The notes beneath the pieces were generated by a model, which made no database searches, was not told the origin of the DNA, and was given only the letters and a program-made list of their open reading frames with translations. From Ureibacillus acetophenoni (GTDB lineage Bacteria > Bacillota > Bacilli > Bacillales_A > Planococcaceae), in contig NZ_OBQC01000003.1 of the NCBI RefSeq assembly GCF_900220965.1, positions 248,001-312,000 of the forward strand: a DNA stretch of 64,000 bases. The letters run 5' to 3'. The position numbers and the translations under genes are program-made. Of the stretch, positions 40,462 to 59,092 are shown piece by piece (within the stretch, counting starts at the first letter, position 1; every line of letters begins with the position of its first letter).

Positions 40462-42180
40462 ATGACAATAGCTATTAAAGAAACGAAAGTTAGTCAATCT
40501 ATTCATTCCAAAACATTAAATAAAACTAAAACGATTGCAAAAGTTGATCGTAAAGACGCAAAACTTGCACTAGCTCATATGTATGTTGCATTCATCGCTT
40601 TATTTATTGGTGGGCTTTGTGGTTTACTTCAAGTGTTAGTTCGTTCTGGTAAATTCCAATTACCTTGGGGTATTGGATATTATCAAGTATTAACAGTACA
40701 TGGTGTTTTGTTAGGTCTTGTACTTACAACATTCTTCGCTATGGGATTCCATACTGCGGCAGTAAGTCGTACATGTGGCGCTTATTCAGATAGTCAACGT
40801 AAACTTGGTTGGGTTGGGTTCTCAATCATGACAATTGGTACAACAGCAGCAGCTATTATGGTACTTTTAAATGAAGCTTCTGTTCTATTTACTTTCTATG
40901 CTCCACTACAAGCACACTGGATCTTCTATGCTGGTATCGCTTTAGTTGTAGTTGGAAGTTGGATTTTAGCTTTAATGCAAGGTTTACGTTTTGCTCAATG
41001 GAAAAGAGAAAATAAAGGTCAAGTAACTCCTTTATTATCATTCATGGTAATTATTAATAACTTAATGTGGACGGTTGCAACAATTGGTGCGGCAGCGGTA
41101 GTATTATTTCAATTGATCCCATGGTCTATTGGATGGGTTGAACGAATTGATATTTTACTATCACGTACTTTATTCTGGTATTTTGGTCACGCTCTTGTTT
41201 ATTTCTGGTTATTACCTGCATACATGGTTTGGTATGTTGCAATTCCAAAAATTATTGGTGGGAAAATTTTCTCTGATGCTTTAGCTCGTCTAGCATTTAT
41301 CTTATTCTTACTACTATCTATTCCAGTAGGTATCCACCACCAATTAACTGAGCCTGGTATTGATGCATTTTGGAAATTCTTACAAGTTACATTAACTATG
41401 TTTGTTGTAGTTCCCTCTTTAATGACAGCATTTTCATTATTTGCAACTTTTGAATTAAGAGGACGTGAGCTAGGATCAAAAGGTATTTTCGGTTGGTTTA
41501 AAAACTTACCTTGGAATGATTGCCGTTTCTTATTACCATTCATCGGTATGGTTGCATTCATCCCTGGTGGTGCTGGTGGTATTGTTAACGCATCTTATCA
41601 AATGAACCAATTAATTCACAACACAATTTGGGTAACAGGTCACTTCCATTTAACTGCGGCTACTACTGTAGTATTAACATACTTCGGTGCTGCATTTTGG
41701 TTGATCCCTCACCTAACTGGGCGTAAGTTAACGAAGAGAATTAACAACATGGCAATTACTGGTGGTATTTTATGGACTGTTGGTATGATCATTATGTCTG
41801 GTGCAATGCATATCGCTGGATTATTCGGTGCTCCACGTCGTTCTGAATACTCAACTTATGGTGGTTCAGAACAAGCTGCTGAATGGATTTCTTATCAAAT
41901 TGCTCAAGCCGTTGGTGGTACAATATTATTCGTTGCAATTCTAGTAATCTTAGGTGTAATTATTAACTTATTATGGTATGGACCAAAAGGCGACGAAGAA
42001 TTCCCTGTTGCAGAAGTTGCAGAAGGAGCAGCAAAAACTCCAATGATTTTAGAAAACTTCAAAGTTTGGGGCGTTGTATTAGTAGCATTAATTTTAATCG
42101 CATACACAGTTCCAATTTTTGATATTCTTACAAATTCACCATTAGGTTCAGTAGGATATCCTCACCTAATTGGTCGTTAA
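40462..42180 (+). CDS. cbaA: ba3-type cytochrome c oxidase subunit I
   Basis: This 572-residue membrane protein has about thirteen helices and carries heme and CuB. Heme or copper ligands are visible: His in YQVLTVHGVLLG, the CuB helix FWYFGHALVYFWLLPAY, the His pair GIHHQLTEP, and the GHFHLT motif. As in B-type oxidases the D-channel residues of A-type enzymes are absent. It reduces oxygen to water with proton pumping. Such high-affinity enzymes act at low oxygen, fitting the Fnr-like site upstream. A GC-rich element follows the stop. Confidence 0.95.
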   Translation: MTIAIKETKVSQSIHSKTLNKTKTIAKVDRKDAKLALAHMYVAFIALFIGGLCGLLQVLVRSGKFQLPWGIGYYQVLTVHGVLLGLVLTTFFAMGFHTAAVSRTCGAYSDSQRKLGWVGFSIMTIGTTAAAIMVLLNEASVLFTFYAPLQAHWIFYAGIALVVVGSWILALMQGLRFAQWKRENKGQVTPLLSFMVIINNLMWTVATIGAAAVVLFQLIPWSIGWVERIDILLSRTLFWYFGHALVYFWLLPAYMVWYVAIPKIIGGKIFSDALARLAFILFLLLSIPVGIHHQLTEPGIDAFWKFLQVTLTMFVVVPSLMTAFSLFATFELRGRELGSKGIFGWFKNLPWNDCRFLLPFIGMVAFIPGGAGGIVNASYQMNQLIHNTIWVTGHFHLTAATTVVLTYFGAAFWLIPHLTGRKLTKRINNMAITGGILWTVGMIIMSGAMHIAGLFGAPRRSEYSTYGGSEQAAEWISYQIAQAVGGTILFVAILVILGVIINLLWYGPKGDEEFPVAEVAEGAAKTPMILENFKVWGVVLVALILIAYTVPIFDILTNSPLGSVGYPHLIGR

Positions 42181-42186
42181 TTAAGA

Positions 42187-42366
42187 AATGCGAAAGAACG
42201 CTCGCCCAGCTCTGAGAGCAACTGGCCGTTCGTAAACGCAACTTCCTGTCGCACTTCCGGCACTCGTACATCCATGTACATCGGAGGAACCGATAAAAGG
42301 ACGCGCCTTTTTGTCCTTGCAGGCGGTTTCGAAGTTGCCGAGGAGCTAGCGTTCGAAGCTAGACAA
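42187..42366. repeat. GC-rich structured intergenic element (180 bp)
   Basis: This stretch is clearly more GC-rich than the surrounding DNA. It contains many inverted repeats: outer arms GAACGCT/AGCGTTC (42196-42202 with 42348-42354), inner arms GCAACTT/AAGTTGC (42238-42244 with 42332-42338), the palindrome GTACATCCATGTAC (42266-42279) and CGGAGGAACCG (42282-42292). It sits between the oxidase stop and the shared terminator. I do not recognise a named element. It may be a dispersed repeat or a structured RNA; an ORF in it is not convincing. Confidence 0.6.
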
Positions 42367-42396: not shown

Positions 42397-42455
42397 AAGA
42401 ATAAGAACCCTCCCCTACTAGACTCGAACTAGTTTAGGGAGGGTTTCTTATTCTT
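42397..42455. terminator. Bidirectional terminator between cbaA and the acyl-CoA ligase gene
   Basis: Long, nearly perfect arms (42397-42414 with 42437-42455, one extra T) enclose an ACTAG/CTAGT region. The minus-strand stem takes in the stop codon of the ligase gene. It can end both convergent transcripts. Confidence 0.85.
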
Positions 42456-43941
42456 CATATAATTGCACTAATTTCTTCTTATCAATTTTCCCAACGTGGG
42501 TTTTTGGTAATTCGCTTGTAAAGATAATCTTCTTTGGTACTTTATAAGCTCCGAGATGTTTTCGGCAGATTGACTGAATCTCATCAATTAATGCCGCGTC
42601 CCTCTCCTCACTAACAACAATAGCTGTAACGATTTCTCCCCATTTGGAATCTTTTAACCCAACGACGGCAACTTCTTTAATTTTAGGATGTGTAATGATA
42701 CATTGTTCAACTTCTTGTGGATAAACATTTTCCCCACCTGTGATGATCATATCTTTCGAACGACCAACTATATACACGTCACCATCTTCATCCATTTTAG
42801 CTAAATCACCTGTTTTTAACCAACCATTAATGATTGCTTTGTACGTTTCTTCTTGGTTGTTCCAATAGTAGGAAAACATGTGCTTCCCTTGTACGTAAAG
42901 TTCTCCTACTTCATTTGGACCACAAATATTACCTTCAGTATTCAATATTTTTATTGAATTAAATACCATACTTCTACCTACAGAGCCAGGTTTTGTTGCA
43001 GATCGTTCTGGAGGAATATAAAAGTTATTCGGCCCTGCTTCAGTTAGACCGTAGCCCTCCTTAAATTTTAATCCCTTATTTAAGAAGTGCGTATAGATCG
43101 TTTTCGGACATGGAGCCCCTCCAGATAAAAATAACTTTACGGTTGGAAAGTTGGACTGTTTAAAATACTCTGTTTCAATCATTGACTGATACATAGTTGG
43201 TACAAATAGTGATATCGTTGTTTTGTAGTCATCAATAGCACGAATTGCTTCTTCTGGATTGAATTTGTTACCAATTACCACTGTTCCACCAACCATTAAA
43301 ATAGGAATGGTCAATGCATTCAACCCACCGGTATGAAACAGTGGCATATAATTTAAAGTACAATCATTTTCCTCTAAACTCCAACTAATAATTGTGTTAA
43401 TTGCATTCCAATTGACAGCATCAAAGGATAAAACTACTCCCTTAGGTTTACCTGTTGTACCACCGGTGTAAATCATTAACCAAGCATCTTTACTACACCA
43501 ATCTGTATTAACATTTGGAAGGTTTTCATAAATCTCATAGTCTATCGTTTCACTAAGTTCAATCGTATGTCCCTCAAACATTTCCTCTGCAACGTCATTA
43601 TATTTATCATCCGCCAAAAGAACGGTAGGTGAACAATCTTGTATGATCGTTTGAAGTTCTTCTATACTTAACCTCCAGTTAAGAGGTACATATATATATC
43701 CACCTAAGCCACATGCGAATAGGAGCGGAAAGAGATCTATTGAATTTTCTGCTAATACTGCAACCCGCTCCCCCTTTTTTAGCCCTCGAGAGTGCAAATA
43801 TCCATAACAATTCAATGTTCGAGTTGCAAGTTCTTCATAAGTCCAAGTACGGTTAGTTCGTATATCGATTAACGCTATCTTATCAGGGGTTAATTTTGCT
43901 CGATTTAATATCCAGGACTGTTCATTAAACATATTACCCAC
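42448..43941 (-). CDS. AMP-forming acyl-CoA ligase
   Basis: This 497-residue member of the acyl/aryl-CoA synthetase (ANL) family activates a carboxylic acid with ATP and CoA. The phosphate loop YTGGTTGKPKGV is at about residue 157, the GYGLTEAGPN motif near residue 293 and the GWLKTGDLAKMDEDG hinge near residue 368. The C-terminal Lys motif is PKTHVGKIDKKKL. The acid cannot be named from sequence; fatty, aromatic or branched acids are possible. It is the last gene of the 42.4-51.4 kb operon, six bases after the SDR gene. Confidence 0.9.
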   Translation of the reverse strand: MGNMFNEQSWILNRAKLTPDKIALIDIRTNRTWTYEELATRTLNCYGYLHSRGLKKGERVAVLAENSIDLFPLLFACGLGGYIYVPLNWRLSIEELQTIIQDCSPTVLLADDKYNDVAEEMFEGHTIELSETIDYEIYENLPNVNTDWCSKDAWLMIYTGGTTGKPKGVVLSFDAVNWNAINTIISWSLEENDCTLNYMPLFHTGGLNALTIPILMVGGTVVIGNKFNPEEAIRAIDDYKTTISLFVPTMYQSMIETEYFKQSNFPTVKLFLSGGAPCPKTIYTHFLNKGLKFKEGYGLTEAGPNNFYIPPERSATKPGSVGRSMVFNSIKILNTEGNICGPNEVGELYVQGKHMFSYYWNNQEETYKAIINGWLKTGDLAKMDEDGDVYIVGRSKDMIITGGENVYPQEVEQCIITHPKIKEVAVVGLKDSKWGEIVTAIVVSEERDAALIDEIQSICRKHLGAYKVPKKIIFTSELPKTHVGKIDKKKLVQLYEE

Positions 43942-43947
43942 CCCAAA

Positions 43948-44688
43948 TCACATCATAATTCCTCCATCAACATTTAAAACATGGCCATTCACATAACTTG
44001 ATTCATCTGAAGCTAAAAACAAATAGGCATTGGCAATGTCTTTTGGAACACCTAGTCTTTGTAGACTGACAATTGACTCCATGTAGTTTAAAACTTTTTC
44101 TGGCATTTTTTCTGTCATTGATGTCTTTGTAAATCCTGGAGCAACTGCATTAACATTAATTCCTTTTCTCCCTAATTCTTTCGCCCATGTTTTTGTCATC
44201 CCAACTACAGCAGCTTTTGTTGCAGCGTAATTCGTTTGACCAACATTTCCGTATACCCCACTTACAGATGATGTATTGATGACTTTTCCATAACCCTTTT
44301 CGATCATGTGGGGAACAACAGCTTGTGTACAGTTAAAAACGCCTTTTAAATTTACATCTATTACACGGTCAAAATCTTCTTCAGTCATTTTTACAAGCAT
44401 AGCATCCTTTGTAATACCGGCATTATTAACTAATATATCAATCGTTCCATAGTTTGATAGAACTGTATCCACCATAGATTGAACACTTTCTTTACTAGCA
44501 ACATTTAATTGTACAAATAGAACATCCAAATTTTTCTCTCTCAATTCGGATTCTAATTGCTTACCTTGTTCCTCAGCGAAATCTGCAATAACTACTTTAG
44601 CCCCTTCACTTGAGAAAGTTTCTACTGCAGCTCTTCCGATTCCATTTGCACCACCAGTTATGATGGCTACCTTATCTTTTAATCTCAA
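43948..44688 (-). CDS. Short-chain dehydrogenase/reductase (FabG-like)
   Basis: This 246-residue SDR has the nucleotide-binding TGGANGIG loop (residues 10-17), NNAG (residues 88-91), the catalytic Ser in INTSSVSGVYG, and YAATK. It most resembles 3-oxoacyl-ACP or acetoacetyl-CoA reductases. In this operon it probably acts on a CoA or ketone intermediate as an oxidation or reduction step. The stop is followed at once by the ligase gene; the start is 11 bases after the hydrolase stop. Confidence 0.9.
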   Translation of the reverse strand: MRLKDKVAIITGGANGIGRAAVETFSSEGAKVVIADFAEEQGKQLESELREKNLDVLFVQLNVASKESVQSMVDTVLSNYGTIDILVNNAGITKDAMLVKMTEEDFDRVIDVNLKGVFNCTQAVVPHMIEKGYGKVINTSSVSGVYGNVGQTNYAATKAAVVGMTKTWAKELGRKGINVNAVAPGFTKTSMTEKMPEKVLNYMESIVSLQRLGVPKDIANAYLFLASDESSYVNGHVLNVDGGIMM

Positions 44689-44699
44689 ATGATCACCTT

Positions 44700-45596
44700 C
44701 TAGTTCAAGAATTTTTCTATCTCTGTTTTTAATTGTTGTAAATCGTCAATTAATGGTGAATGGCCACAGTTTTCAAGTTTTACTGTTTTTGCTTTATCAC
44801 CAAAGTCTTCGATAATTTCTTCTGTCATACTAAATGTCACAACTAAATCTCTATCTCCATATAGATTTAGTACTGGAATGTTAATTTTATCGACTTCACC
44901 AGTGCCTTCAGCTGCAGCGTTATCAACGTGACTTATATTAAAAGTATTTAAAGCATGGTAAACATCTGCTAGATTTCTTTGTGTCAACATATCGTTAACA
45001 TACTCATTATATTTTTCTTCCTCAGGTTGCTTATGAGTATAAATTGCTGCATTCCATATCATTTTTAACCCTTCAGTATTTCTTGTATCGTAAAGAGCTT
45101 GCATTGGAATGGTCTTCATTGCATCAGCTTCAATTTCCTCTATCGTTGTAAAACGAGTTGAAAGATCAGGTGATCCATCACTATTTGATTTGTAGTGTGG
45201 ATAGCCTCTAGTAGAACCTGAAGCTAGCAGAACTAGTTTTTCGCAATATTCTGGATATTGGATGCAGAATTGCATACAAACTGTTCCTCCGAATGACCAA
45301 CCTACTAAACTAAAATTCTTTAACTCTAAAGCGTCGGCGAATAGTTTAATATCATCGCTGAAATCTCTTACATGTTCAGCTCTAGAGTTATATGTTGACC
45401 CACCGAAGCCTCTTAAATCAGGAGCGATGATAGTAAAATCTTTACTAAATGCTTCCATTAATACATCCCAATGTTTAGAAGATGTCATATTTCCGTGAAT
45501 AAACAGAACAAGCTTTTCACCACCTGGTCGTTCACGATACGTAATTGTTTCGCCATTTGGTAGTTGTACAGCCTTTAATTGATCGATAACCTTCAT
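44700..45596 (-). CDS. Alpha/beta hydrolase
   Basis: This 298-residue protein has the HG oxyanion motif LFIHGNMTSSKHW, the nucleophile elbow GWSFGG (Ser near residue 104), an Asp in YGDRDLVV and His in NCGHSPLID. It may cleave an ester, thioester or C-C bond, as hydrolases of aromatic and diketone pathways do. I take the ATG at 45596, six bases after AGGAGGG, over an earlier one at 45644 inside the KASIII-like gene. It lies 11 bases after the KASIII-like stop. Confidence 0.9.
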   Translation of the reverse strand: MKVIDQLKAVQLPNGETITYRERPGGEKLVLFIHGNMTSSKHWDVLMEAFSKDFTIIAPDLRGFGGSTYNSRAEHVRDFSDDIKLFADALELKNFSLVGWSFGGTVCMQFCIQYPEYCEKLVLLASGSTRGYPHYKSNSDGSPDLSTRFTTIEEIEADAMKTIPMQALYDTRNTEGLKMIWNAAIYTHKQPEEEKYNEYVNDMLTQRNLADVYHALNTFNISHVDNAAAEGTGEVDKINIPVLNLYGDRDLVVTFSMTEEIIEDFGDKAKTVKLENCGHSPLIDDLQQLKTEIEKFLN

Positions 45597-45607
45597 GACA
45601 TTCCCTC

Positions 45608-46618
45608 CTATTCTTTTCCCCATCGAATTGTAATTGCACCCCATGCATAACCAATACCGGCACTTACTAAAGTAATTACATCACCATCTCTAATTTTTCC
45701 TTCTTCTAGTGCCAGTTTAAGAGATAAAATTTGATCGATTTGACCGATATGACCATAATTCGAAAGATAAATAGAATTTTCCTCATCTAAATTAAACGAT
45801 TTTAAAATATAATCATGTGCTGATTTTTTCACGTGAAGCATTCCTAGATAGGACAAATCACTTTCATTAAATCCGCTTTTTATCAAAGAATTACGGATTA
45901 CTTTTATAAAATTATCTATTGACTTCTGTTCAAGTCGGCTTTTCATGCCAGCAGGATCTAACACATCTAATCGATATAGCCCTTGTGCTAAGTGCTCCGA
46001 AGTTAAAGGTTCTTTTGTTCCTCCTACCGGAACTAATACATCTTCAGAAAACGAACCATCTGTAATAATTTCACTTTCATAGACGATATTTTCTTTTACA
46101 TCTTTTCTTAGTACTAGTGCTCCTCCACCAGCTCCGAGATTAAACATAAATCTTGTTCTTTCATTTTTATAATCGATGAAATCATGATTACGATACCCAC
46201 CAGCAAGTAATACAGTATTTATATTTTCATCTGACAACATTAAACTTTTAGCTAGTTTTATAGCCATAATCGTCGTGCCACATCTTAATTGTGTGTCAAA
46301 AGCCCACGCATTCGTTGCTCCAATTTCCTCTTGAATCTTTATGGCAGCTGTCCATAATGGATATTCTTTATGTTCTTCTCCAATGTAAATAATGACATCG
46401 ATTTCTCTAGGATCAATATTTGCATTATCAATGGCATCTTTTGCTGCATGAATTCCCATTTGAACAGTATGATCATCTTTTCCAGCAATCGTTTTTTGAT
46501 TAATACCCATTTTTGTTTTTACAATATGTGCAGGTATATCTGCAATTTGAGCAATCTCTTCTCCTGTCATTCTTTCCGAAGGTAAATATAAACCTATTCC
46601 AATGATCCCTACATTCAT
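45608..46618 (-). CDS. KASIII-like (FabH/thiolase superfamily) synthase
   Basis: This 336-residue protein is a chalcone/KASIII-type condensing enzyme. It has a complete catalytic triad: Cys in TQLRCGTTIMA (C113), His in LHVKKSAHD (H262) and Asn in YLSNYGHIG (N287), spaced as in FabH. FabH starts fatty-acid synthesis, but here it sits inside a transport and acyl-CoA operon with no acyl-carrier-protein gene. It might condense or cleave an acyl-CoA. The ATG overlaps the livM-like stop by four bases, so translation is coupled. Confidence 0.85.
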   Translation of the reverse strand: MNVGIIGIGLYLPSERMTGEEIAQIADIPAHIVKTKMGINQKTIAGKDDHTVQMGIHAAKDAIDNANIDPREIDVIIYIGEEHKEYPLWTAAIKIQEEIGATNAWAFDTQLRCGTTIMAIKLAKSLMLSDENINTVLLAGGYRNHDFIDYKNERTRFMFNLGAGGGALVLRKDVKENIVYESEIITDGSFSEDVLVPVGGTKEPLTSEHLAQGLYRLDVLDPAGMKSRLEQKSIDNFIKVIRNSLIKSGFNESDLSYLGMLHVKKSAHDYILKSFNLDEENSIYLSNYGHIGQIDQILSLKLALEEGKIRDGDVITLVSAGIGYAWGAITIRWGKE

Positions 46619-47634
46619 TTTGAACTCTCCTTATTCTTTGAAAGTGGAACGACATTTAATTGAGCTTTCTTATCTTTCCATTGGAAGTACTTTGCTTGAA
46701 TAGTACCAACAATTCCTTTAGGGAAGAAGATTACTGCTAAGATATAAATAATACCGAAGAAGATAATCCATCGTTCAAATATTGGGAAATCCCTCGCTAG
46801 TCCTGATAAGTAATGCTGTGCCGATTCAATAACTACTGCCCCTACTAGTGGACCAATTAATGTTCCTACCCCACCTATGATCGTCATTAGTAAAGCATCT
46901 AACGTAATTTCCATTGTTAAAACGGCTGTATTCACAAATCGAAGTGAAACTGCATATAGTGAACCCGCTAAACTTGCGATGACACCAGCTAATACTGAGG
47001 CTATTACTTTATAATAAAGTGTTTTAAAGCCTAATGATTTTGTTCTTTGTTCATTTTCACGAACAGCGATTAGTACGCGACCTAATGGTGAATTTACAAA
47101 ACGTTTCAATACAATAAATACGATAACTATTAAAGCAAGAACGACTAAATAAAATACAATTCGATCTTTAAACACTTCCGGTGCTTTAAATGTGAATCCA
47201 TCATTTCCTTTTGTCACACTTCTCCACTTTTCAGCTACTACTAATAGAAGACCTGAAATTGCCATTGTTAACATAGCAAAGAAATGACTTTTCAAACGTA
47301 AAGTAAGTAGACCTACTATAAAACTTAATATTCCAGCAATTACCATACCAACGGCAATTGATCCAATAAATACGAAAATAGTAGATTCAAAGTCGTTTAG
47401 CATTATTGCTGTACAATAGGCTCCAATCCCGAAGAACATTGCATGACCAAAGGAAACGATCCCAGTATACCCAAGTAAAATATCGTAACTCATTGCCAAA
47501 ATACCAAAAATTAATATTTGTGTTACCAAAATCGTCAGTGTTCTAGAATCCATTACAAATGGGAATGCAATAAGGGCAAGCACAATAATAAATAAAAAAA
47601 TATTTGATCTTGATAGTAATATTGGTTTATTCAT
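46615..47634 (-). CDS. livM: Branched-chain amino-acid-type ABC permease (LivM-like)
   Basis: This 339-residue protein has about ten transmembrane helices and the LivM signature ISFIV..LTLRLKSHFFAMLTMA near residue 105 and GGVGTLIGPLVGA near residue 255. It forms the membrane channel with LivH. Transporters of this group import branched-chain amino acids, amides, urea, benzoates or other acids, so the substrate is open. It starts four bases after the livH-like stop. Confidence 0.92.
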   Translation of the reverse strand: MNKPILLSRSNIFLFIIVLALIAFPFVMDSRTLTILVTQILIFGILAMSYDILLGYTGIVSFGHAMFFGIGAYCTAIMLNDFESTIFVFIGSIAVGMVIAGILSFIVGLLTLRLKSHFFAMLTMAISGLLLVVAEKWRSVTKGNDGFTFKAPEVFKDRIVFYLVVLALIVIVFIVLKRFVNSPLGRVLIAVRENEQRTKSLGFKTLYYKVIASVLAGVIASLAGSLYAVSLRFVNTAVLTMEITLDALLMTIIGGVGTLIGPLVGAVVIESAQHYLSGLARDFPIFERWIIFFGIIYILAVIFFPKGIVGTIQAKYFQWKDKKAQLNVVPLSKNKESSK

Positions 47635-47638
47635 TTCC

Positions 47639-48502
47639 TCACCCCTTCGCCGTTGTGAATAATCCTTGAGGACGGAAGATTAACACAACTACCATTATTA
47701 TCATATTTACTGCAAGTGATAGATATGGAACGTAGTAAGCCATGAAACTACCTGCTAATCCAACTAAGATTGCAGCAAATAGTGATCCCTGGAAACTACC
47801 CATTCCCCCTATTACCACTACGATAAATGCCATAATTGCAAATTCCATTCCAAGCTCAGCATAAATTGCTCCAGAATATGGTGCAAATAACACACCCGCT
47901 AATGCTGCAAGAGCTGAACCCGTCATAAAGACAACTAAGAAGATTCGTTTAATATTAATCCCAAGTGCCTGTACCATTTCACTGTTCATAACCCCAGCTC
48001 GAACAACAAGACCAATTTTTGTGCGTGTGAGCATATAATGGAATAGCCCAAAAATGATAAATCCAAAGAAAATAATGAAAATACGATATTTAATAATAAT
48101 AATATCTCCTAGTTGCCAACTTCCGGCTAAAAGTTCAGGTACCTTTACTGCAACAACGTTTGGCCCGAAGACTACCTTAATCATTTCTTGAAGAACGAGC
48201 ATAAATCCTAAAGTGATTAGAATTTGTTGAACGAGATTTCCGTAAACTGGAGTAATAATTAACTTTTCCGTAATAAATCCAAAGACAAGTCCCGTTAAAA
48301 TCGCAACAATAATCCCTACAATAAAACTTCCAGAATAGGCATAGCTAAATACACCTGCATATGCACCCCACACGAATAACCCACCGTGTGCAAAGTTAAG
48401 GACATGCATTAAACCAAAAATAAGTGTTAGACCAGAAGCAAGTAAAAAAATTAACATTCCTGTGGCTAGCCCATTGATAATCAAACTAAAAATTAAATCC
48501 AT
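47639..48502 (-). CDS. livH: Branched-chain amino-acid-type ABC permease (LivH-like)
   Basis: This 287-residue protein has eight hydrophobic segments and the LivH pattern GLTLIFGLMHVLNFAHG (residues 24-40). GGMGSFQGSLFAAILVG near residue 234 is the loop touching the ATPase. It pairs with LivM to form the pore of the importer. A good ribosome site (GGGGGG) precedes the ATG, which is 12 bases after the LivF-like stop. Confidence 0.92.
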   Translation of the reverse strand: MDLIFSLIINGLATGMLIFLLASGLTLIFGLMHVLNFAHGGLFVWGAYAGVFSYAYSGSFIVGIIVAILTGLVFGFITEKLIITPVYGNLVQQILITLGFMLVLQEMIKVVFGPNVVAVKVPELLAGSWQLGDIIIIKYRIFIIFFGFIIFGLFHYMLTRTKIGLVVRAGVMNSEMVQALGINIKRIFLVVFMTGSALAALAGVLFAPYSGAIYAELGMEFAIMAFIVVVIGGMGSFQGSLFAAILVGLAGSFMAYYVPYLSLAVNMIIMVVVLIFRPQGLFTTAKG

Positions 48503-48514
48503 GTAGTTCCCCCC

Positions 48515-49225
48515 TTAGCCGATTCCTAAGTATTTATGCTTCAATTCATCATCTTCTATGAGTTCCTTCATTTCACCGTGGCGAACTGTTCTCCCATCGT
48601 CAATTAATGTAAAAGTGTCACCGATTTTGCTAGCCATATAAAAATTTTGTTCAACTAATACAATGGAAGTCTGTTTCTTCATTTCCACTATAGCTTCCAT
48701 TACTTTTTCAATGACAATAGGCGCTAGACCCTTGGAAGGCTCATCAATAAGTAGTAGCTTACTATCATTTACGAATGCTCGAGCCATCGCAAGCATTTGC
48801 TTTTGACCACCCGATAAATTTCCACCAGCTTTTTTCCAAAACTTTTTTAAATCAGGAAATAAGTTTAGAACGTATTCTAACTTTTCCTTACTTTCATCAT
48901 TTTCTTTTCGCATGGCTACTTTAATATTCTCTTCAACTGTTAAATCAGCAAAAACCCCTTGATCCTCTGGAACATATCCAATCCCTAAATTTGCAATATC
49001 ATAAGTTGGCTTTTTCGTTATGTCCTGATTTAAAAATGTAACCGAACCAGCTGTAGCCGGTGTTAAACCAATAATAGTTTTTAAAGTAGTTGTTTTTCCC
49101 GCACCATTTCGTCCTAGAAGAACAGAAACTTCACCTTCTTTAGCTTCAAAATGAACTCCTTGTAGAATATGGTACTGACCTATATGGGTATTGATATTAT
49201 CAAGTTTCAACAAGCTCTCCATCAT
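48515..49225 (-). CDS. livF: ABC transporter ATPase (LivF-like)
   Basis: This 236-residue ATPase has Walker A LLGRNGAGKTTTLK near residue 37, signature LSGGQKQMLAMARA and Walker B LLLIDEPSKGL. The short form and GYVPEDQGVF are typical of LivF. It drives import with LivG. It overlaps the LivG gene by 26 bases, and the AGGAGGG ribosome site is within that gene. A second ATG three bases later is equally possible. Confidence 0.92.
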   Translation of the reverse strand: MMESLLKLDNINTHIGQYHILQGVHFEAKEGEVSVLLGRNGAGKTTTLKTIIGLTPATAGSVTFLNQDITKKPTYDIANLGIGYVPEDQGVFADLTVEENIKVAMRKENDESKEKLEYVLNLFPDLKKFWKKAGGNLSGGQKQMLAMARAFVNDSKLLLIDEPSKGLAPIVIEKVMEAIVEMKKQTSIVLVEQNFYMASKIGDTFTLIDDGRTVRHGEMKELIEDDELKHKYLGIG

Positions 49226-49973
49226 AAAGCCCTCCTAAATAAGCATTTTGAACAGTTGTATTATTCATAATTTCGCTAGGGGATCCATCGGCTAATAGTT
49301 TCCCATTAAATAACACCATGATGGAATCTGATAAATCTAAAATCATATCCATTTTGTGTTCAATTAATAGAATTGTTTTGTCCCCTCTACTTTTAATAGA
49401 CTTAATAACATCTAAGATCGCTGGTACTTCCTCCAATGACATTCCAGCCGTTGGTTCATCAAGCATTAACACTTCCGTGTCAAGCGCAAGTAACATAGCG
49501 ATTTCTAGTTTTCGTTTTTCACCATGGGCTAATTGACTAGCAATATGATGGGCTTTGTTTTCGAGTAATACTTGTTCTAGGATTGTCAGCGCATCTTGTG
49601 TAATCTTTTTATAATGTAAATAATGTTTAAACGGGTTAAATCTTATTTTTTCTCTAGACTGTACAGCAAGGCGAACATTTTCTAACACTGTTAAATTTGG
49701 AAAAACATTTGTAATTTGGAAAGAGCGGCCTAATCCAAGTCTTGTACGTTCAACCGAAGACAGATTTGCAATCGATTGACCTTTAAAAAATACGTCACCT
49801 TCTGTATTCTTAAGCTCACCACTGATTAAGTTAAAAAATGTTGTTTTCCCAGCTCCATTTGGTCCAATGATGGACTTAAAATGTTTTTCTGGCATTTCAA
49901 AGTTGACGCGATCCACCGCCTTATGTCCACCAAAACTAATACTTAAATTTTCTGTACGAATAATTGGTTCCAT
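49200..49973 (-). CDS. livG: ABC transporter ATPase (LivG-like)
   Basis: This 257-residue ATPase has Walker A GPNGAGKTTFFN near residue 37, GLGRSFQ, signature LAHGEKRKLEIAM and Walker B VLMLDEPTAGM. The AHGEKR signature is typical for the LivG group. The ATG at 49973 follows AGGAGGAG; an upstream start at 50021 has no ribosome site. A hairpin separates it from the binding-protein gene. Confidence 0.92.
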   Translation of the reverse strand: MEPIIRTENLSISFGGHKAVDRVNFEMPEKHFKSIIGPNGAGKTTFFNLISGELKNTEGDVFFKGQSIANLSSVERTRLGLGRSFQITNVFPNLTVLENVRLAVQSREKIRFNPFKHYLHYKKITQDALTILEQVLLENKAHHIASQLAHGEKRKLEIAMLLALDTEVLMLDEPTAGMSLEEVPAILDVIKSIKSRGDKTILLIEHKMDMILDLSDSIMVLFNGKLLADGSPSEIMNNTTVQNAYLGGLYDGELVET

Positions 49974-50045
49974 TTTTCTCCTCCTATCTGCTCCTCTTAA
50001 AATCTTCTTGATAGTTTTCAAGAATCTAATGAAAAGATTTTAAGA

Positions 50046-50074
50046 GAAACAGACCAAATTTGTTGGTCTGTTTC
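50046..50074 (-). promoter_or_regulatory. Intercistronic hairpin after the binding-protein gene
   Basis: An 11-bp perfect stem (50046-50056 with 50064-50074) lies between the stop of the binding protein and the LivG start. It has no strong T-run. Such hairpins often protect the upstream mRNA or lower read-through, giving more binding protein than permease. Confidence 0.6.
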
Positions 50075-50085
50075 AAATTTTGTCC

Positions 50086-51357
50086 TTAATTCATAATTGG
50101 TGGCTCAGTTTCCTCTGGTGAAAGCTCACGAATTAATACAGGAACAGGATAATCAAATCCTTCCACTTCCTCTAAAGTTACAGAGTATAGCGGTTGTAAT
50201 GCCTGATGATCTTCCGGACGGAATGTCATAGTTCCTTTTGGAGTTTCAAATGACATACCTTCCATTAAAGGTATTAATGTATTACCATCTGCATCCCCAC
50301 CTGATTTTTCTAAAGCAGTAACAATTGCCATCGCAGCGGCAAATCCACCTGGAGTGAATAAATCAGGAACTTCGCCATTATGACGCTTTTTATGTTCGTC
50401 TACTAACCAATCATTAATTGGATTGTCTGGTAGAGTATGATAGTAAACTGAGAATCCTTCCATACCAACTAATTGACCCATTGTCATTAAAGCTGGAATA
50501 TCTGGAGCACCTGTTGAAATTTTGATGCCATTTTCTTGTAACTTCATGTCTGAAATTTGTCCCCAAGGTGAGTTAGCACCTGCCCAAACAACGAATAAGT
50601 AATCTGGTTTTGCATCAATAATTTTTTGTAAGTTTGATGTGAAGTCAGTAGCGTCAGCTGGCGCGTACTCTTCAGCAACAATTTCAGCTCCTAATTCTAA
50701 AGCTGCTGTTTTGAAAGCAGATACCCCATCCCAACCGAAAGAATAGTCCGGAGCAAATGTTGCAATTTTCACACCTTCACCAGCAATCGCAGCAGCCGCT
50801 GCATATGCGTCTTGTGAAGAGTTACGAGCTGTTCTAAAGATATAAGGATTAAACTCTGAACCTGTAATACTATCAGCAACAGCAGGTTCAACGATCATAA
50901 TCGTTTCATATTCTTCAGCTAATGGTAATACAGCTAATGTATCCCCTGAACTCGAAGAACCAACTAAGAAATCAACTTGATCATCTTCTAATAGTTTCGT
51001 AGCTTTTTGAACAGCTACTTCTGGTTTTGTTTCAGTGTCTTCATAAACTACTTCAATCTTTTTCCCTGCAACTTCCATTGTTCCACCAGTTGCATATTCA
51101 AGTCCTAATTCAAATCCCTTTTGTGTTTGTTTACCGTAGGACTCTAACGCACCAGTTAATGATGCTAGAACACCGATCTTGATAGTGCCACCAGATTCAG
51201 TTGCAGTTTCTGTCGTTTCTGTTTGCTCTTCAGAAGTTGAATCTTCTTTGTCAGTCGATGTGTCTGGTGTATTAGAAGATGATTGCTGTTCTCCACCACA
51301 TGCTGCAAGAATGATAACTAGAAAAGCCATCATAAGCAGATACCAAAACTTTTTCAT
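50086..51357 (-). CDS. livK: ABC transporter substrate-binding lipoprotein (LivK/AmiC-type)
   Basis: The product starts with a lipoprotein signal ending in ILAACGG (Cys at residue 20). A Ser/Thr/Glu-rich spacer of about 40 residues precedes a type I periplasmic-binding domain with IKIGVLASLTGALESYG. The mature protein sits on the outer face of the membrane and delivers the ligand to LivHM. The ligand is not evident. It is the first gene of the operon, with AAGGGGG as ribosome site and a cre-like box 22 bases upstream of the ATG. Confidence 0.93.
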   Translation of the reverse strand: MKKFWYLLMMAFLVIILAACGGEQQSSSNTPDTSTDKEDSTSEEQTETTETATESGGTIKIGVLASLTGALESYGKQTQKGFELGLEYATGGTMEVAGKKIEVVYEDTETKPEVAVQKATKLLEDDQVDFLVGSSSSGDTLAVLPLAEEYETIMIVEPAVADSITGSEFNPYIFRTARNSSQDAYAAAAAIAGEGVKIATFAPDYSFGWDGVSAFKTAALELGAEIVAEEYAPADATDFTSNLQKIIDAKPDYLFVVWAGANSPWGQISDMKLQENGIKISTGAPDIPALMTMGQLVGMEGFSVYYHTLPDNPINDWLVDEHKKRHNGEVPDLFTPGGFAAAMAIVTALEKSGGDADGNTLIPLMEGMSFETPKGTMTFRPEDHQALQPLYSVTLEEVEGFDYPVPVLIRELSPEETEPPIMN

Positions 51358-51378
51358 GAAAAATACCCCCTTCGTAAT

Positions 51379-51392
51379 TTAAAGCGCTTTCA
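51379..51392 (-). promoter_or_regulatory. cre-like CcpA box upstream of the liv/acyl operon
   Basis: The sequence, read as TGAAAGCGCTTTAA on the minus strand, matches the cre consensus TGWAANCGNTNWCA at 13 of 14 positions and has a near-perfect palindromic core. It lies 22-35 bases before the first start codon, where CcpA could act as a block. Confidence 0.6.
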
Positions 51393-51471
51393 TTTGCTTT
51401 GAATATAAGATAAACCATGGGAGTTACAAAAAAGTTACAACTTCGTGAACATTTACAACAAAATGTAGAAA

Positions 51472-51529
51472 ATAACAAAAAACGCTAATAACTTATGAAG
51501 AGAATTTACTCTTCCATAAATCATTAGCG
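51472..51529 (-). terminator. Terminator of the giant regulator gene
   Basis: A stem of about 20 bp with few mismatches (near 51483-51502 with 51509-51529) includes the regulator's stop codon and is followed on the minus strand by TTTTTT. It separates the regulator transcript from the operon. Confidence 0.8.
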
Positions 51530-54500
51530 CACAATCATTTCATATATTTCGTAGGTTGACTCCATTGGTTCAATGTTTAATTCATTTTTTAATACTTCTA
51601 CACATTTTTCAAACCACTTAACAGCTTGGGACCGGTTATTTAACTGGAAATAACTTAGCATAAGAAGTCGATATCCTTCTTCCCAAGTATTATCTTGTTG
51701 TATTAACTTTTCAGCCCAGTAAACAGCATCTTGGAATTTCTTTAGTCGTATTAAATTTTGAGCGATTCTTTCTATTACTTGAATGTATAAATTTACTAGT
51801 TCATTTCTAATTTGTTGAAGCCACTCTATATGCTGAAACTCTTCTAAAAGATTTCCTTTATATAATGATACTGATAACTGGAGCCACTCAATTGAGAGTG
51901 ATGGATTCTTCTCCGCTAACCCATTGGATGCAAACTTTTTAAAATATTCAATATCTGAAGAACTAGAAATACTAGGGTGAAGTTGATACATCGAATTTTT
52001 TCTTATAATATACGCACTTTCTTCTCTCGCATTTCTTTCTGGCTCTAATACTTTTAAGCAAGCATTATAAATTACCTTAAAGTCTCGTGCCATTGCCACA
52101 TCGTTACCATTCGGCCAAAGAATATGCAAAAGTTCGTCCTTTGTAACAAAGCGATCTTTGTTTAACAGTAAATATAAAAACAATTCCTTCGCTTTTTCAC
52201 GTTTCCATTCTTTATCATCTATTTCTTCATAGTCGCGAAAAATTCTAAATGCACCAAGTAAATTTACTGAAATGAAGTATCTAGGAACCACTACTCCCTC
52301 TTTATACTTAATCATCTGTCCTAATTTTTTCAAATCATCATTTGATTCAATTGACAATTGGTAACTTAATAACTGATGAAATATTAATAGATTTCTAGGG
52401 CCCAGTAATGTTATCTTCTGTACGAAAAATTCATATTGATGATTAAAACAGATTGATACAAATTGTTGAAATTCTAATGTAAAACGGTCCTTATCATCTT
52501 TTAAGAAATAAATATAAGACAACCAGAAACTACTGACCATCTGTCCATACTTATCTTTACATTGACTAAATAATTCTTTTGCTCTTTTTGCATAATGTAA
52601 TGCATCAGTGAGCGAATGATTCTCTACGTTAATTTTCGTAAAAGTAGCAAGTAATAATGCAGAGACCCAGGCATCTTGCACTCTTTCAGTTTCATATAAA
52701 CCAAGATTTGCATATGAAATACCTTCATCGATATTGCCATTTCTACTATACACAAGAGCTAACCCCATATAAGATTCTGCTTTTGCCCTAGTAACGTGAA
52801 TTTCATCCATAATTTCTATCGTTTTTAAATAGCTTTGTTCCGCAAATTTCACTTCGAATGGATTTAGTAAAAGCAAAGCATGTCCTCTACGTAAATAGGC
52901 AACGGCTTCAGCATATTGGGAAAAGTCCCTTTCACTATTTATTACACAATTGTTTGCTCGAACAAAAGATTCCTCAATTTCACCTAACATTGATAGAATT
53001 AATGAATTTAATACATCAGATTCGCGATGTGCATCTAAAGGAAGTACTTCTTTTGCTTCTCTAAGTTTAATTAACATCTTCGCATCATTTAGTTTCCCTT
53101 GTCTTAACAACGTTCGAACATCTAAATTTCCTTGATATAGTACTTCTTCAGGGAGATTCATATTCTTAACCCATTGTTCAGACTCATATGCTTTCCCTAA
53201 ATTGACTAAGTTCTCAGCGTATTGTCTTTGTAACAAATAAAGTTCTTCTTTTTCTATATTTACTCGCTCTGCAATTTTTAATGCTTTTTCTAAATAATCC
53301 TCTGCAAATGCTGGTTGTATCGTATCTAAATAGATATGAGCGATTCCTGCATATGTCTTTAATATAAAATAGTGATCCGACAGTTTTTCAGCATAAAATA
53401 AACATTGATCATAAGCCTTTTTAGCCTTTTCATATTGAGCTTTGTAACGTAAACATTCACCTTCATAAAAGAATATGGCGTAATAATCAGCCTTTATTGG
53501 ATCTGATAATTCTTTAATTCGCTCTAAGTAATAATCAAATTGTCCAGCATTAATAAAGAAGTTTGCGAATTGTACGAGTATTTCTGCGATTATTAATTCA
53601 TTTTTCGCTTTATTTGCATGATGGAGTGCAAACATGGGCTTATTTTCGTCGATAAAATATTGGGCAGCTTTGACATGTAGATTTGTAAATTCATCTTCAT
53701 CTTTTTCTTTCAGCTTCATTTCTAAAAACTGTTGGAATAATACATGGAAACGAAACTCCTTTTGTCCATTTAAATGTTGGATGAATCCTTGAATTTTTAA
53801 TAGCTCTTTTAACTGTTCTGCCATTGTTTCATTATAAAATTGCTTTATCAACTCAAAAGAGAATGTTGGGAAAATACTGAATTTTAATAATGCATCTTGC
53901 TGTAGGCTATTCATATTTTCAAAGATTTCTTCAGATAAATATGAGAAAAATTCATTTAATGAAAGATTGGTAATCTCATCAATGGATGTTGTTGAATCAG
54001 AATCTTTTAATTGTAATGCAAGTAGAATAATTGCAATTGCCCAGCCTTCTGTAACATCTAATATTTTTCGAACTTGAGTAATTGTTAAATAACAATCAAA
54101 ATAATCTTCGAACAATACTTGTATTTCTTCCTCAGAAAAAGCAAAATCCTGTTCTGTACATTCGATTAATTGTCCGTTCATTTTTAACTGGAAAAGGCAA
54201 TTCCAATTCAACTTTTGTCTAGTTGCTACGATAAAGTGAATATGCGAAGGCAAGTTTTCTATTATTTTATTTAGAACATAATTTATTTGGAATACGTGGT
54301 TAACAAGGTGAAAATCATCAATAACAATGTATAAGGGCGTATCAATCTTATAAAATTCATTTACAAACATTTTATACAATTTATTTAATTCATCTAGTTT
54401 TGGAAACATTGATAGATTGTCCCAACCGTTTAATGACGTACCAAAGCTATCACACACTCTTTGAATACTGTAAAATAAATGTCTCATAAAAGGTAATATA

Positions 54501-54718
54501 TCATCATCTTCATCTGAAACTTGGTACCAAGAAAACAGTAAATTTTGGTCAGAAGTTATTTGTGTAAGAGCAGAGGTTTTTCCATAGCCTGCACCACTTT
54601 GGAGAATAGTTAGTTTTGCTTGTGAAATTTTTGAAAGTTTCTTTGCAAGGCCAACTCTCCGCATAAAATGATTTGACGTATCCGGTGGAATAATTTTTGA
54701 TAATAGAACATTTTGCAT
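51524..54718 (-). CDS. Large ATP-dependent SARP/MalT-like transcriptional regulator
   Basis: This 1064-residue regulator has a MalT-like signature. A STAND-type ATPase (P-loop QSGAGYGKTSAL near residue 40, with VIDDFHLV) is followed by a long series of TPR-like helices (residues 340-780). Near residue 805 begins an OmpR-type DNA-binding domain (NLLGAFRIFRDYEEID, KAKELFLYLLLNKDRFVTKDEL) and then a bacterial transcriptional activator (BTAD) domain with TPRs to the end. The DNA-binding domain is thus central to the C-terminal half rather than at the very end as in MalT. It probably senses a pathway compound and activates the operon directly downstream. The start is the ATG at 54718 with AAGGAGG nine bases upstream. 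Confidence 0.88.
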   Translation of the reverse strand: MQNVLLSKIIPPDTSNHFMRRVGLAKKLSKISQAKLTILQSGAGYGKTSALTQITSDQNLLFSWYQVSDEDDDILPFMRHLFYSIQRVCDSFGTSLNGWDNLSMFPKLDELNKLYKMFVNEFYKIDTPLYIVIDDFHLVNHVFQINYVLNKIIENLPSHIHFIVATRQKLNWNCLFQLKMNGQLIECTEQDFAFSEEEIQVLFEDYFDCYLTITQVRKILDVTEGWAIAIILLALQLKDSDSTTSIDEITNLSLNEFFSYLSEEIFENMNSLQQDALLKFSIFPTFSFELIKQFYNETMAEQLKELLKIQGFIQHLNGQKEFRFHVLFQQFLEMKLKEKDEDEFTNLHVKAAQYFIDENKPMFALHHANKAKNELIIAEILVQFANFFINAGQFDYYLERIKELSDPIKADYYAIFFYEGECLRYKAQYEKAKKAYDQCLFYAEKLSDHYFILKTYAGIAHIYLDTIQPAFAEDYLEKALKIAERVNIEKEELYLLQRQYAENLVNLGKAYESEQWVKNMNLPEEVLYQGNLDVRTLLRQGKLNDAKMLIKLREAKEVLPLDAHRESDVLNSLILSMLGEIEESFVRANNCVINSERDFSQYAEAVAYLRRGHALLLLNPFEVKFAEQSYLKTIEIMDEIHVTRAKAESYMGLALVYSRNGNIDEGISYANLGLYETERVQDAWVSALLLATFTKINVENHSLTDALHYAKRAKELFSQCKDKYGQMVSSFWLSYIYFLKDDKDRFTLEFQQFVSICFNHQYEFFVQKITLLGPRNLLIFHQLLSYQLSIESNDDLKKLGQMIKYKEGVVVPRYFISVNLLGAFRIFRDYEEIDDKEWKREKAKELFLYLLLNKDRFVTKDELLHILWPNGNDVAMARDFKVIYNACLKVLEPERNAREESAYIIRKNSMYQLHPSISSSSDIEYFKKFASNGLAEKNPSLSIEWLQLSVSLYKGNLLEEFQHIEWLQQIRNELVNLYIQVIERIAQNLIRLKKFQDAVYWAEKLIQQDNTWEEGYRLLMLSYFQLNNRSQAVKWFEKCVEVLKNELNIEPMESTYEIYEMIVR

Positions 54719-54815
54719 TATCACGAACCTCCTTCTTCTCTAATTACAAAACCACTTCAACGAATCTACCTATTACTAAAATATTATTATACTTACTGCA
54801 ATATTTTCAATAATG

Positions 54816-54871: not shown

Positions 54872-54967
54872 TCCCGGTGTAACCGTCCGTAAGTAAGATC
54901 ATATCAATATTCTTATGAACTAGAGAAGCATATATAGAAGTTAACGGACGCTAACACCCCGATTGGT
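54872..54967. repeat. Dispersed repeat, copy A (about 96 bp, terminal inverted repeats)
   Basis: The left end TCCCGGTGTAACCGTCCGTA and right end GACGCTAACACCCCGATTGG form an imperfect inverted repeat of about 20 bases each. The middle is AT-rich and unrelated to that of copy B at 63902, whose ends match closely. No coding potential is seen. It is probably a MITE- or REP-like element. Confidence 0.65.
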
Positions 54968-55068
54968 TGCAGACTAAAAACGCCACGTCCTGTGGCAACG
55001 TCTGCATGACCCACGTCCTGTGGGCCCCAACTAACCATCAATGTAGTGAAAAGCGTCTACATTGATGG
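54968..55068. repeat. Palindrome cluster next to repeat copy A
   Basis: Two copies of a CCACGTCCTGTGG palindrome (GCCACGTCCTGTGGC at 54982-54996, CCCACGTCCTGTGGG at 55010-55024) lie 28 bases apart. The first is enclosed by GCAGAC/GTCTGC (54969-54974 with 55000-55005). A third perfect 12-bp stem (55035-55046 with 55057-55068) follows, near the helicase stop. Confidence 0.65.
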
Positions 55069-58696: not shown

Positions 58697-59092
58697 TCAA
58701 GTAAAATTCAATAAGCCATGTTTTGTTCCCGAGTACTCAAACGGCTAAAGCCTCGTACGAACCGGGTAGTAATCATCTATCTACGCGAACTAGCGCGTCC
58801 CTCCATCCGTTCATTTCCTTCAGGAGAGTGCCCCTACCATAATTTGGGTTTCTCACTCGTGGGGTTTACCTCGTTCCACCTTCACCGTTTCCGATGAAGC
58901 TCCGTCACTGTGGCACTTTCAGGAAGTGTCAACCATATCACAAGGACTTAGGTTTTCCTTCCGCCGTCAAGCTTTCGCTTGCCTTACCTTATTTTTTCGG
59001 TAAGCACGAACACTACGGTCATCTCAGATCCGTGTGAGCATGGACTTTCCTCTACAACTTCTATGAGTTGCAGCGATTACTCGAATTTCACA
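58697..59092 (-). ncRNA. rnpB: RNase P RNA (B-type)
   Basis: The minus strand contains the diagnostic pieces of the Bacillus ribozyme in order: GAGGAAAGTCCATGCTCACA near the 5' end, the GTAGTGTTCGTGCTTACCG stem, GACGGCGGAAGGAAAACCTA, GAAAGTGCCACAGTGACGGA, AGGTAAACCCCACGAGTGAG, AACCCAAATTATGGTAGGGG and the closing TACGAGGCTTTAGCCGTTTG, with GGAACAAAACATGGCTTATT at the 3' end. It trims 5' leaders from tRNAs together with RnpA. Ends are set by comparison with the B. subtilis RNA and may be off by about ten bases. It is flanked by ypsC and gpsB as in Bacillus. Confidence 0.95.

Follow-up and report, generated by a model that had tools for sequence, protein, structure and literature searches.

A window of 64,000 nucleotides from Ureibacillus acetophenoni (contig NZ_OBQC01000003.1, positions 248,001 to 312,000) contains ten open reading frames (ORFs) that occupy positions 42448–54724 of its minus strand and encode a very large regulator (REG) and an operon of nine genes, i.e., five for a Liv-type ABC importer (the binding protein BP, LivG, LivF, LivH and LivM) and four for a KASIII-fold enzyme (KAS), a homologue of polyhydroxyalkanoate (PHA) depolymerases (PHZ), a short-chain dehydrogenase/reductase (SDR) and an acyl-CoA ligase (LIG). 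The reading favoured here, which stands about an even chance of being correct, is that this operon is a dedicated, catabolite-repressed system for the uptake and degradation of external (R)-3-hydroxyalkanoate oligomers or esters, with 3-hydroxybutyrate oligomers as the likeliest substrate. It draws on computed features of the locus and its relatives: gene content and order, the protein families, the conservation of an operator and of a site resembling a catabolite-responsive element (cre), the lack of association with the PHA synthase PhaC, and the absence of the importer and of an intact KAS from two loci of PhaC-bearing relatives. The components belong to known families; their import-coupled combination and the operator appear undescribed within the one open-licence literature library searched, where neither the operon nor a characterised pathway with this gene order was found, in agreement with a preliminary description of the window made from its sequence alone.

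Gene content and conserved order

That description had recognised a run of nine genes on one strand with a regulator directly upstream. The assignment of domains with Pfam and NCBIfam confirmed it: all the ORFs are open, the named domains were found, and the order is BP, LivG, LivF, LivH, LivM, KAS, PHZ, SDR and LIG, after the MalT/BTAD regulator REG (Table 1). The gaps between the genes of the run do not exceed 64 bp. Regarding the overlaps that had been reported, those between LivG and LivF (26 bp) and between LivM and KAS (4 bp) were found; the one between KAS and PHZ (37 bp) depends on an early start codon, because the depolymerase profile starts at residue 26 of the PHZ ORF, and the real start of PHZ likely lies inside this ORF.

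Table 1. Features of the regulator gene, the control region and the operon (positions in the window)
Feature	Positions	Strand	Basis
REG, 1066-residue regulator: MalT-like NTPase, TPR and C-terminal BTAD	51524..54724	-	Pfam, profiles, PDB match
Hairpin and T-run at REG end, likely terminator	51483..51529	-	15-nt arms (51483-51497, 51515-51529) 87% complementary
Predicted operator TTGTAACT-TTT-TTGTAACT, 11-bp direct repeat	51422..51440	-	second half overlaps predicted -35, upstream of BP
Promoter-like TTGTAA-16-TATATT	51402..51429	-	consensus scan; placed by position only
cre-like site TGAAAGCGCTTTAA	51379..51392	-	10/11 consensus positions
BP, lipoprotein-type substrate-binding protein (Peripla_BP_6)	50086..51357	-	PF13458, 224 bits; best PDB match 3n0x, 358 bits
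Hairpin between BP and LivG	50046..50074	-	12-bp perfect inverted repeat
LivG-type ATPase	49200..50021	-	ABC_tran and BCA_ABC_TP_C
LivF-type ATPase	48515..49225	-	ABC_tran
LivH-type permease	47639..48502	-	BPD_transp_2
LivM-type permease	46615..47634	-	BPD_transp_2
KAS, KASIII-fold enzyme, family NF005308, with C113, H262 and H290	45608..46618	-	508.7 bits vs cut-off 315
PHZ, intracellular short-chain PHA depolymerase homologue	44700..45644	-	NF050089, 456.4 bits vs cut-off 300
SDR, NAD-type FabG-like reductase/dehydrogenase	43948..44688	-	NF004198, 318.8 bits vs cut-off 296
LIG, AMP-forming acyl-CoA ligase	42448..43941	-	PF00501 and PF13193
Terminator hairpin of the operon	42397..42455	-	21-nt arms (42397-42417, 42435-42455) 86% complementary, then T-run; overlaps LIG stop

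A protein search with KAS gave 383 loci with relatives, and the best 80 were kept for the comparison of gene order, the check that the preliminary description had named (loci, genomes and contigs are cited by L, G and C numbers). The enzymes stay linked: 70 of these 80 loci have all nine genes in this order, contig ends truncate four, and SDR is missing from six; in 68, REG is the next gene upstream and has the same orientation. The nearest loci are from Ureibacillus, with KAS proteins 91–92% identical. The grouping of the nine genes is far beyond chance. In a sample of 250 genomes, all from the family of the window (family sample), 89 had a KAS over its cut-off and 97 a PHZ; each of the 89 KAS-bearing genomes also has a PHZ, likewise over its cut-off and adjacent to KAS in every case (89/89). 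In a second sample, of 299 genomes from the class, KAS exceeded the cut-off in 41.

The depolymerase homologue and the control region

PHZ is 43.6% identical to the protein of PDB entry 8ynv, and alignment with this structure and with the variant 8ynw assigns putative catalytic roles to Ser117, Asp266 and His295, which are kept in 80/80 loci; from its sequence, PHZ is a putative hydrolase of polyhydroxybutyrate (PHB) or its oligomers. Since PHZ belongs to a family named intracellular depolymerase, it could be thought that PHZ attacks intracellular granules and that the other proteins handle the monomers, i.e., that the operon mobilises the cell's own stored PHB. PhaC does occur in 12 of the 89 carrier genomes of the family sample, and in B. 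thuringiensis deletion of phaZ delays PHB degradation and does not abolish it (PMC4908106). This explanation is nevertheless highly improbable. With TIGR01836, the only PhaC model that was run, no PHA synthase was found in the host (best score 20.9 bits versus a cut-off of 365.3). PhaC over the cut-off was likewise absent from 77/89 carriers of the family sample and from 32 of the 35 KAS-bearing genomes that the class sample contains from other families, where three have PhaC and there is one partial match under the cut-off. In the family sample PhaC is about as frequent in genomes with KAS (12/89) as in those without it (24/161; Fisher p=0.85, phylogeny ignored). PhaC is thus not associated with the operon, and therefore the depolymerase seems to serve imported, not stored, material, for which alone an importer would have a point.

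Eight genomes of the family sample have a PHZ while their KAS, if any, stays under the cut-off; PhaC is present in seven of these (p=2.8e-5 versus 12/89, phylogeny ignored), the exception being the genome of L139. All eight loci (L133–L140) were inspected. In L136–L140 PHZ was found and REG, KAS, importer subunits and LIG were undetected in the stretch (L138 has two SDR matches); L134 contains only PHZ and SDR. The other two, L133 and L135, from the PhaC-bearing genomes G084 and G218, keep REG, the operator (with 0 and 1 mismatches, respectively), PHZ, SDR and LIG, and have no importer between REG and PHZ, although an importer elsewhere in these genomes was not searched for. In L133 KAS is an N-terminal stub (local alignment score of 102; the highest of 500 shuffles was 41), and in L135 it is a frame-broken C-terminal piece; that the remnants are not the same suggests two independent deletions, each in a genome with PhaC. 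That the importer is the part missing there is a further point against the mobilisation of stored PHB. The simplest reading of these loci is that the hydrolase, SDR and ligase process material derived from PHA, the importer being of importance when this material is external.

REG carries a BTAD domain (PF03704, 69.3 bits versus a cut-off of 22.1) at residues 925–1064, preceded by TPR matches and by a MalT-like region, which reached 208 bits with the MalT profile over residues 8–408, under the full-length cut-off of 537, and matched MalT (PDB 8bob) over residues 8–406 with E=1e-36. Residues 820–925 gave no Pfam match for an OmpR-type winged helix; a weak match to the AfsR profile covers residues 820–1065 (E=2e-4). 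Direct repeats with 11-bp spacing are typical of the sites of SARP-type regulators. In a survey of 77 upstream regions, from the window and 76 loci, exact 8-mer repeats were present at this spacing in 47, versus only 0–2 for each of the other spacings from 8 to 15 bp, and the box TTGTAACT-N3-TTGTAACT was found with at most 3/16 mismatches in 73/77. The 18-base core of the operator has a single exact copy in the host genome, at this operon. When it was searched for in 24 genomes (12 carriers, of which 8 belong to the genus of the host and 4 to other genera, plus 12 of the 16 non-carriers of that genus), it was detected at the operon in 9/12 carriers and in 0/12 non-carriers, and a reversed control pattern gave one match. 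One carrier has a second exact core away from the operon, near small ORFs (L126, G093:C9:116646). Given the conservation of the box beside REG and the SARP-type spacing, it is predicted that REG binds this box.

Matches to the promoter consensus were not above chance (47 found versus 66.4 expected). Sites resembling cre with at least 10/11 consensus positions occur in 25/77 upstream regions versus 0.86 expected, and those with at least 9/11 in 48/77 versus 11.64; in 38 of the 73 regions with the operator box, a site of the latter class lies at a distance of 45–51 bp, counted from the beginning of the box. Repression by CcpA bound at this site is predicted. Altogether, the synteny, the dedicated operator, the NAD-type SDR and the cre-like site, which about half of the relatives have at a nearly fixed spacing, strengthen the earlier proposal of a catabolic operon with a Liv importer.

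Proposed pathway and alternative substrates

With a Peripla_BP_6 protein, two ABC ATPases and two BPD_transp_2 permeases, the importer is of the Liv/HAAT type, and none of its subunits reaches the cut-offs of the NCBIfam Liv (branched-chain amino acid) or Urt (urea) models listed. In the proposed mechanism, REG would sense the substrate or a metabolite and activate at the direct repeat, and CcpA would repress at the cre-like site; BP-LivGFHM would import an ester or oligomer, PHZ would cleave it to a 3-hydroxyacid, LIG would convert the latter to 3-hydroxyacyl-CoA, the NAD-type SDR would oxidise this to 3-ketoacyl-CoA, and KAS, run backwards as a thiolase, would release acetyl-CoA. Besides the binding of REG and CcpA, the ligand of BP, the order in which LIG and SDR act and the thiolytic direction of KAS are parts of the scheme that we infer, and by analogy with the PhaZ-BdhA-AacS route of B. 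thuringiensis an order in which oxidation comes first is possible.

The closest PDB match of SDR is 4nbu (66.8% identity), a FabG listed as NADH-selective in PMC5249140, and Asp36 is present in 72/72 SDRs; SDR scored below the cut-off for 3-hydroxybutyrate dehydrogenase (TIGR01963, 182 bits versus 307). LIG has Lys485, kept in 79/80 loci with a gap in the remaining one; none of the 25 NCBIfam rows listed for it reaches its cut-off, and by model it is not an acetoacetyl-CoA synthetase (TIGR01217, 38.9 bits versus 520.9). The name of the KAS family, 3-oxoacyl-ACP synthase PRK06840, is a model label behind which no activity was seen. KAS resembles FabH in its fold, scores below the FabH cut-off (TIGR00747, 142.7 bits versus 292.1) and is devoid of the FabH Cys-His-Asn triad: Cys113 aligns, His262 is one column off the FabH histidine, and the Asn column is occupied by His290 in 79/79 relatives. 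The FabH-like fold, together with an SDR nearest to FabG-type reductases by sequence, would also suit assembly, in which LIG activates an imported acid, KAS condenses, SDR reduces and the hydrolase frees a 3-hydroxyacid product or signal. This we consider improbable, given the replacement of the FabH Asn by His, the NAD-type Asp36 in every SDR, the cre-like site that many relatives have close to the promoter, the absence of space for a carrier-protein gene in the run, and the dehydrogenase and thiolase neighbours in some lineages.

A sister KASIII family, KAS2, has Ser in place of Cys113, and its order is often LIG2-MaoC-KAS2-BP, with LivGFHM in several cases; it was seen on host contig C20 (L097:9875-10876), in L098–L101, L109–L116, L118 and L122, and at L057:2193-3224. 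The KAS2 set adjoins the main operon in some genomes; the host stretch (L097) has only LIG2-KAS2. Possibly, this cysteine-less branch acts with the MaoC hydratase as a retro-aldolase.

A more serious, though still unlikely, alternative is that the same logic serves another substrate, such as an ester of a branched, longer-chain or aromatic 3-hydroxy- or 3-keto-acid, with a PHZ diverged to an esterase. It would be consistent with the lack of a listed ligase model that LIG satisfies, with the KAS2 set that the importer also accompanies, with the general alpha/beta hydrolases (by Pfam) that adjoin the importer in alphaproteobacteria, haloarchaea and Chloroflexota, and with a separate 3-hydroxybutyrate route already present in the host. 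That route comprises a true 3-hydroxybutyrate dehydrogenase elsewhere in the genome (TIGR01963, 353 bits versus a cut-off of 307), next to a GntP-like permease; a 3-oxoacid CoA-transferase subunit is also present in the host. These genes suggest that the free monomer is handled elsewhere, for which reason oligomers or related esters are favoured as the substrate. On the other side, PHZ exceeds the PHA depolymerase cut-off in 89/89 KAS-bearing genomes, REG, the operator and PHZ-SDR-LIG are retained at the two importer-less loci of PhaC-bearing relatives, and 3-hydroxybutyrate dehydrogenase genes lie near the operon or the importer in four loci.

Three of these four are among the 80 loci, have a gene 65–70% identical to the host dehydrogenase after LIG, and pass the 307-bit cut-off: L057 (345 bits), L012 (375 bits) and L048 (374 bits). 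In the last two the gene is accompanied by a permease and a sigma-54-type regulator 34–36% identical to the proteins beside the host's own dehydrogenase. This three-gene stretch (L012:15194-18999, L048:16490-20267) has its match on host contig C25 (L102:9622-13428), separate from the operon, and is likely a monomer-use cluster. The fourth is from Mariluticola (L092), where the dehydrogenase (370 bits) is followed by BP-LivGFHM (BP 53% identical) and an alpha/beta hydrolase. The preliminary description had left the substrate as an unknown acyl, ketone or aromatic acid; the depolymerase homologue and these dehydrogenases narrow the class.

Related sets occur in alphaproteobacteria, haloarchaea and Chloroflexota. 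Besides that of Mariluticola, three alphaproteobacterial sets, likewise drawn from six plasmid matches with BP identity of at least 43%, were viewed; in place of the dehydrogenase, these have a hydrolase in the vicinity of TetR, enoyl-CoA hydratase, AMP-binding and MaoC genes. In haloarchaeal plasmids (3 of 10 matches viewed), a KAS 36–39% identical lies beside the importer, with ATPases 41–44% identical; hydrolase, AMP-binding protein and MaoC genes adjoin them in L090 and L091 and are absent from L089. The Chloroflexota plasmid L096 contains a full-length relative of REG (26%), SDR (53%), a hydrolase, BP and LivGFHM, as well as a CoA transferase and a thiolase with an OB-fold partner. A thiolase lies between SDR and LIG in L069 and has no close match in the other 79 loci, and in L120 KAS, SDR and an acetyl-CoA C-acyltransferase are consecutive, with no Liv set nearby. 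L117 and L121 show the order LIG-REG-KAS-PHZ-SDR with no importer in the stretch; after SDR there is an ORF with a signal-peptide-like start (L117:12473-13738, a lipase-2 by Pfam, and L121:12117-13445), a candidate secreted polyesterase, and a second PHZ-like hydrolase. In both stretches (19 kb) the motif TGCAAC-N5-TGCAAC, related to the operator, is found in two places, before LIG and before the signal-peptide ORF.

Several points weigh against the uptake and degradation of 3-hydroxyalkanoate oligomers. PHZ, at 44% identity to the PDB depolymerase, could be an esterase for another ester, and a search of the host genome gave no PF10503 depolymerase; the host would therefore depend on oligomers made by others. 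Its dehydrogenase and CoA-transferase subunit mean that monomer use needs no operon. The best PDB match of BP names no ligand, SDR is absent from 6/80 loci, and no more than 3/80 loci have a 3-hydroxybutyrate dehydrogenase near the operon, as does one of the four alphaproteobacterial sets viewed. L096 encodes a distant KASIII (26%) without His262 and His290, and a non-thiolytic role of KAS is possible, because the FabH Asn is His290 and the Cys-less KAS2 accompanies the same importer. Finally, PhaC coexists with the operon in 12 genomes of the family sample, and the tests of co-occurrence with PhaC are uncorrected for phylogeny.

More broadly, and with less than even confidence, it is proposed that bacteria that do not make polyesters widely scavenge 3-hydroxyacid oligomers shed from the PHA of other organisms, through Liv import and a CoA-first route with a KASIII-fold thiolase as its last step, under the control of a STAND-BTAD activator with a one-site operator together with CcpA. 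If the reading favoured here is right, the operon would give Gram-positive bacteria a candidate route for taking up PHA fragments, would explain the "intracellular" depolymerase of many genomes in which no PHA synthase is detected, would supply a predicted DNA-binding site for a very large STAND-BTAD regulator, and would bear on which organisms use PHA bioplastics, both natural and manufactured. With its operator and its single binding protein, the operon lends itself to direct tests.

Operon boundaries and comparison with known systems

The position of REG directly upstream of the run agrees with the preliminary description; however, the gene ends in its own hairpin and T-run, and REG may thus be a separate transcription unit. 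The terminator after LIG, which had been regarded as shared, is a minus-strand hairpin; sharing is not supported, because the plus direction has no T-run and the convergent gene, an oxidase gene, ends at 42180. Between them, at 42190–42360, there are several short self-complementary pieces; a 29-base piece of this stretch occurs once in the window. The hairpin between BP and LivG has a possible role in RNA processing or attenuation; stems of at least 9 pairs were counted near this position in 40/76 loci, a count made without a shuffle control. Two RNA genes lie beyond REG: a Bacillaceae-1 RNA (RF01690) at 54958–55024 on the plus strand, in the interval that separates REG from the following minus-strand gene, and a bacterial RNase P class B RNA at 58707–59088 on the minus strand. 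The host assembly comprises 3.98 Mb in 39 contigs.

The nearest known route is the degradation of PHB in B. thuringiensis by PhaZ, BdhA and AacS, as described in PMC4908106. Both share a depolymerase homologue, an SDR dehydrogenase and an AMP-forming ligase; the operon described here differs in being coupled to an importer, in having a KASIII-fold enzyme and in occurring in hosts mostly without PhaC. Unlike BdhA and AacS, its SDR is of the FabG type, under the BdhA-type cut-off, and its LIG is far under the AacS cut-off. SDR shares Asp36 and high identity with the NADH-dependent FabG of Bacillus sp. (PDB 4nbu), but it sits in a putative catabolic operon and would be used in the direction of oxidation. 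KAS is 16–26% identical to members of the FabH/BioZ/PqsD KASIII superfamily, from which it is set apart by His290 and by a family of its own. The importer has the same composition as the Liv/HAAT-type ABC importers of branched-chain amino acids and urea, i.e., a binding protein, two ATPases and two permeases; in contrast with these, the neighbouring enzymes suggest an acyl ester as the substrate. Likewise, REG shares the MalT-like NTPase and TPR of the MalT/LAL regulators and the BTAD domain and direct-repeat operator with 11-bp spacing of the SARP regulators; it differs from both in combining these features in a single protein of 1066 residues, whose Pfam matches include no LuxR-type helix-turn-helix.

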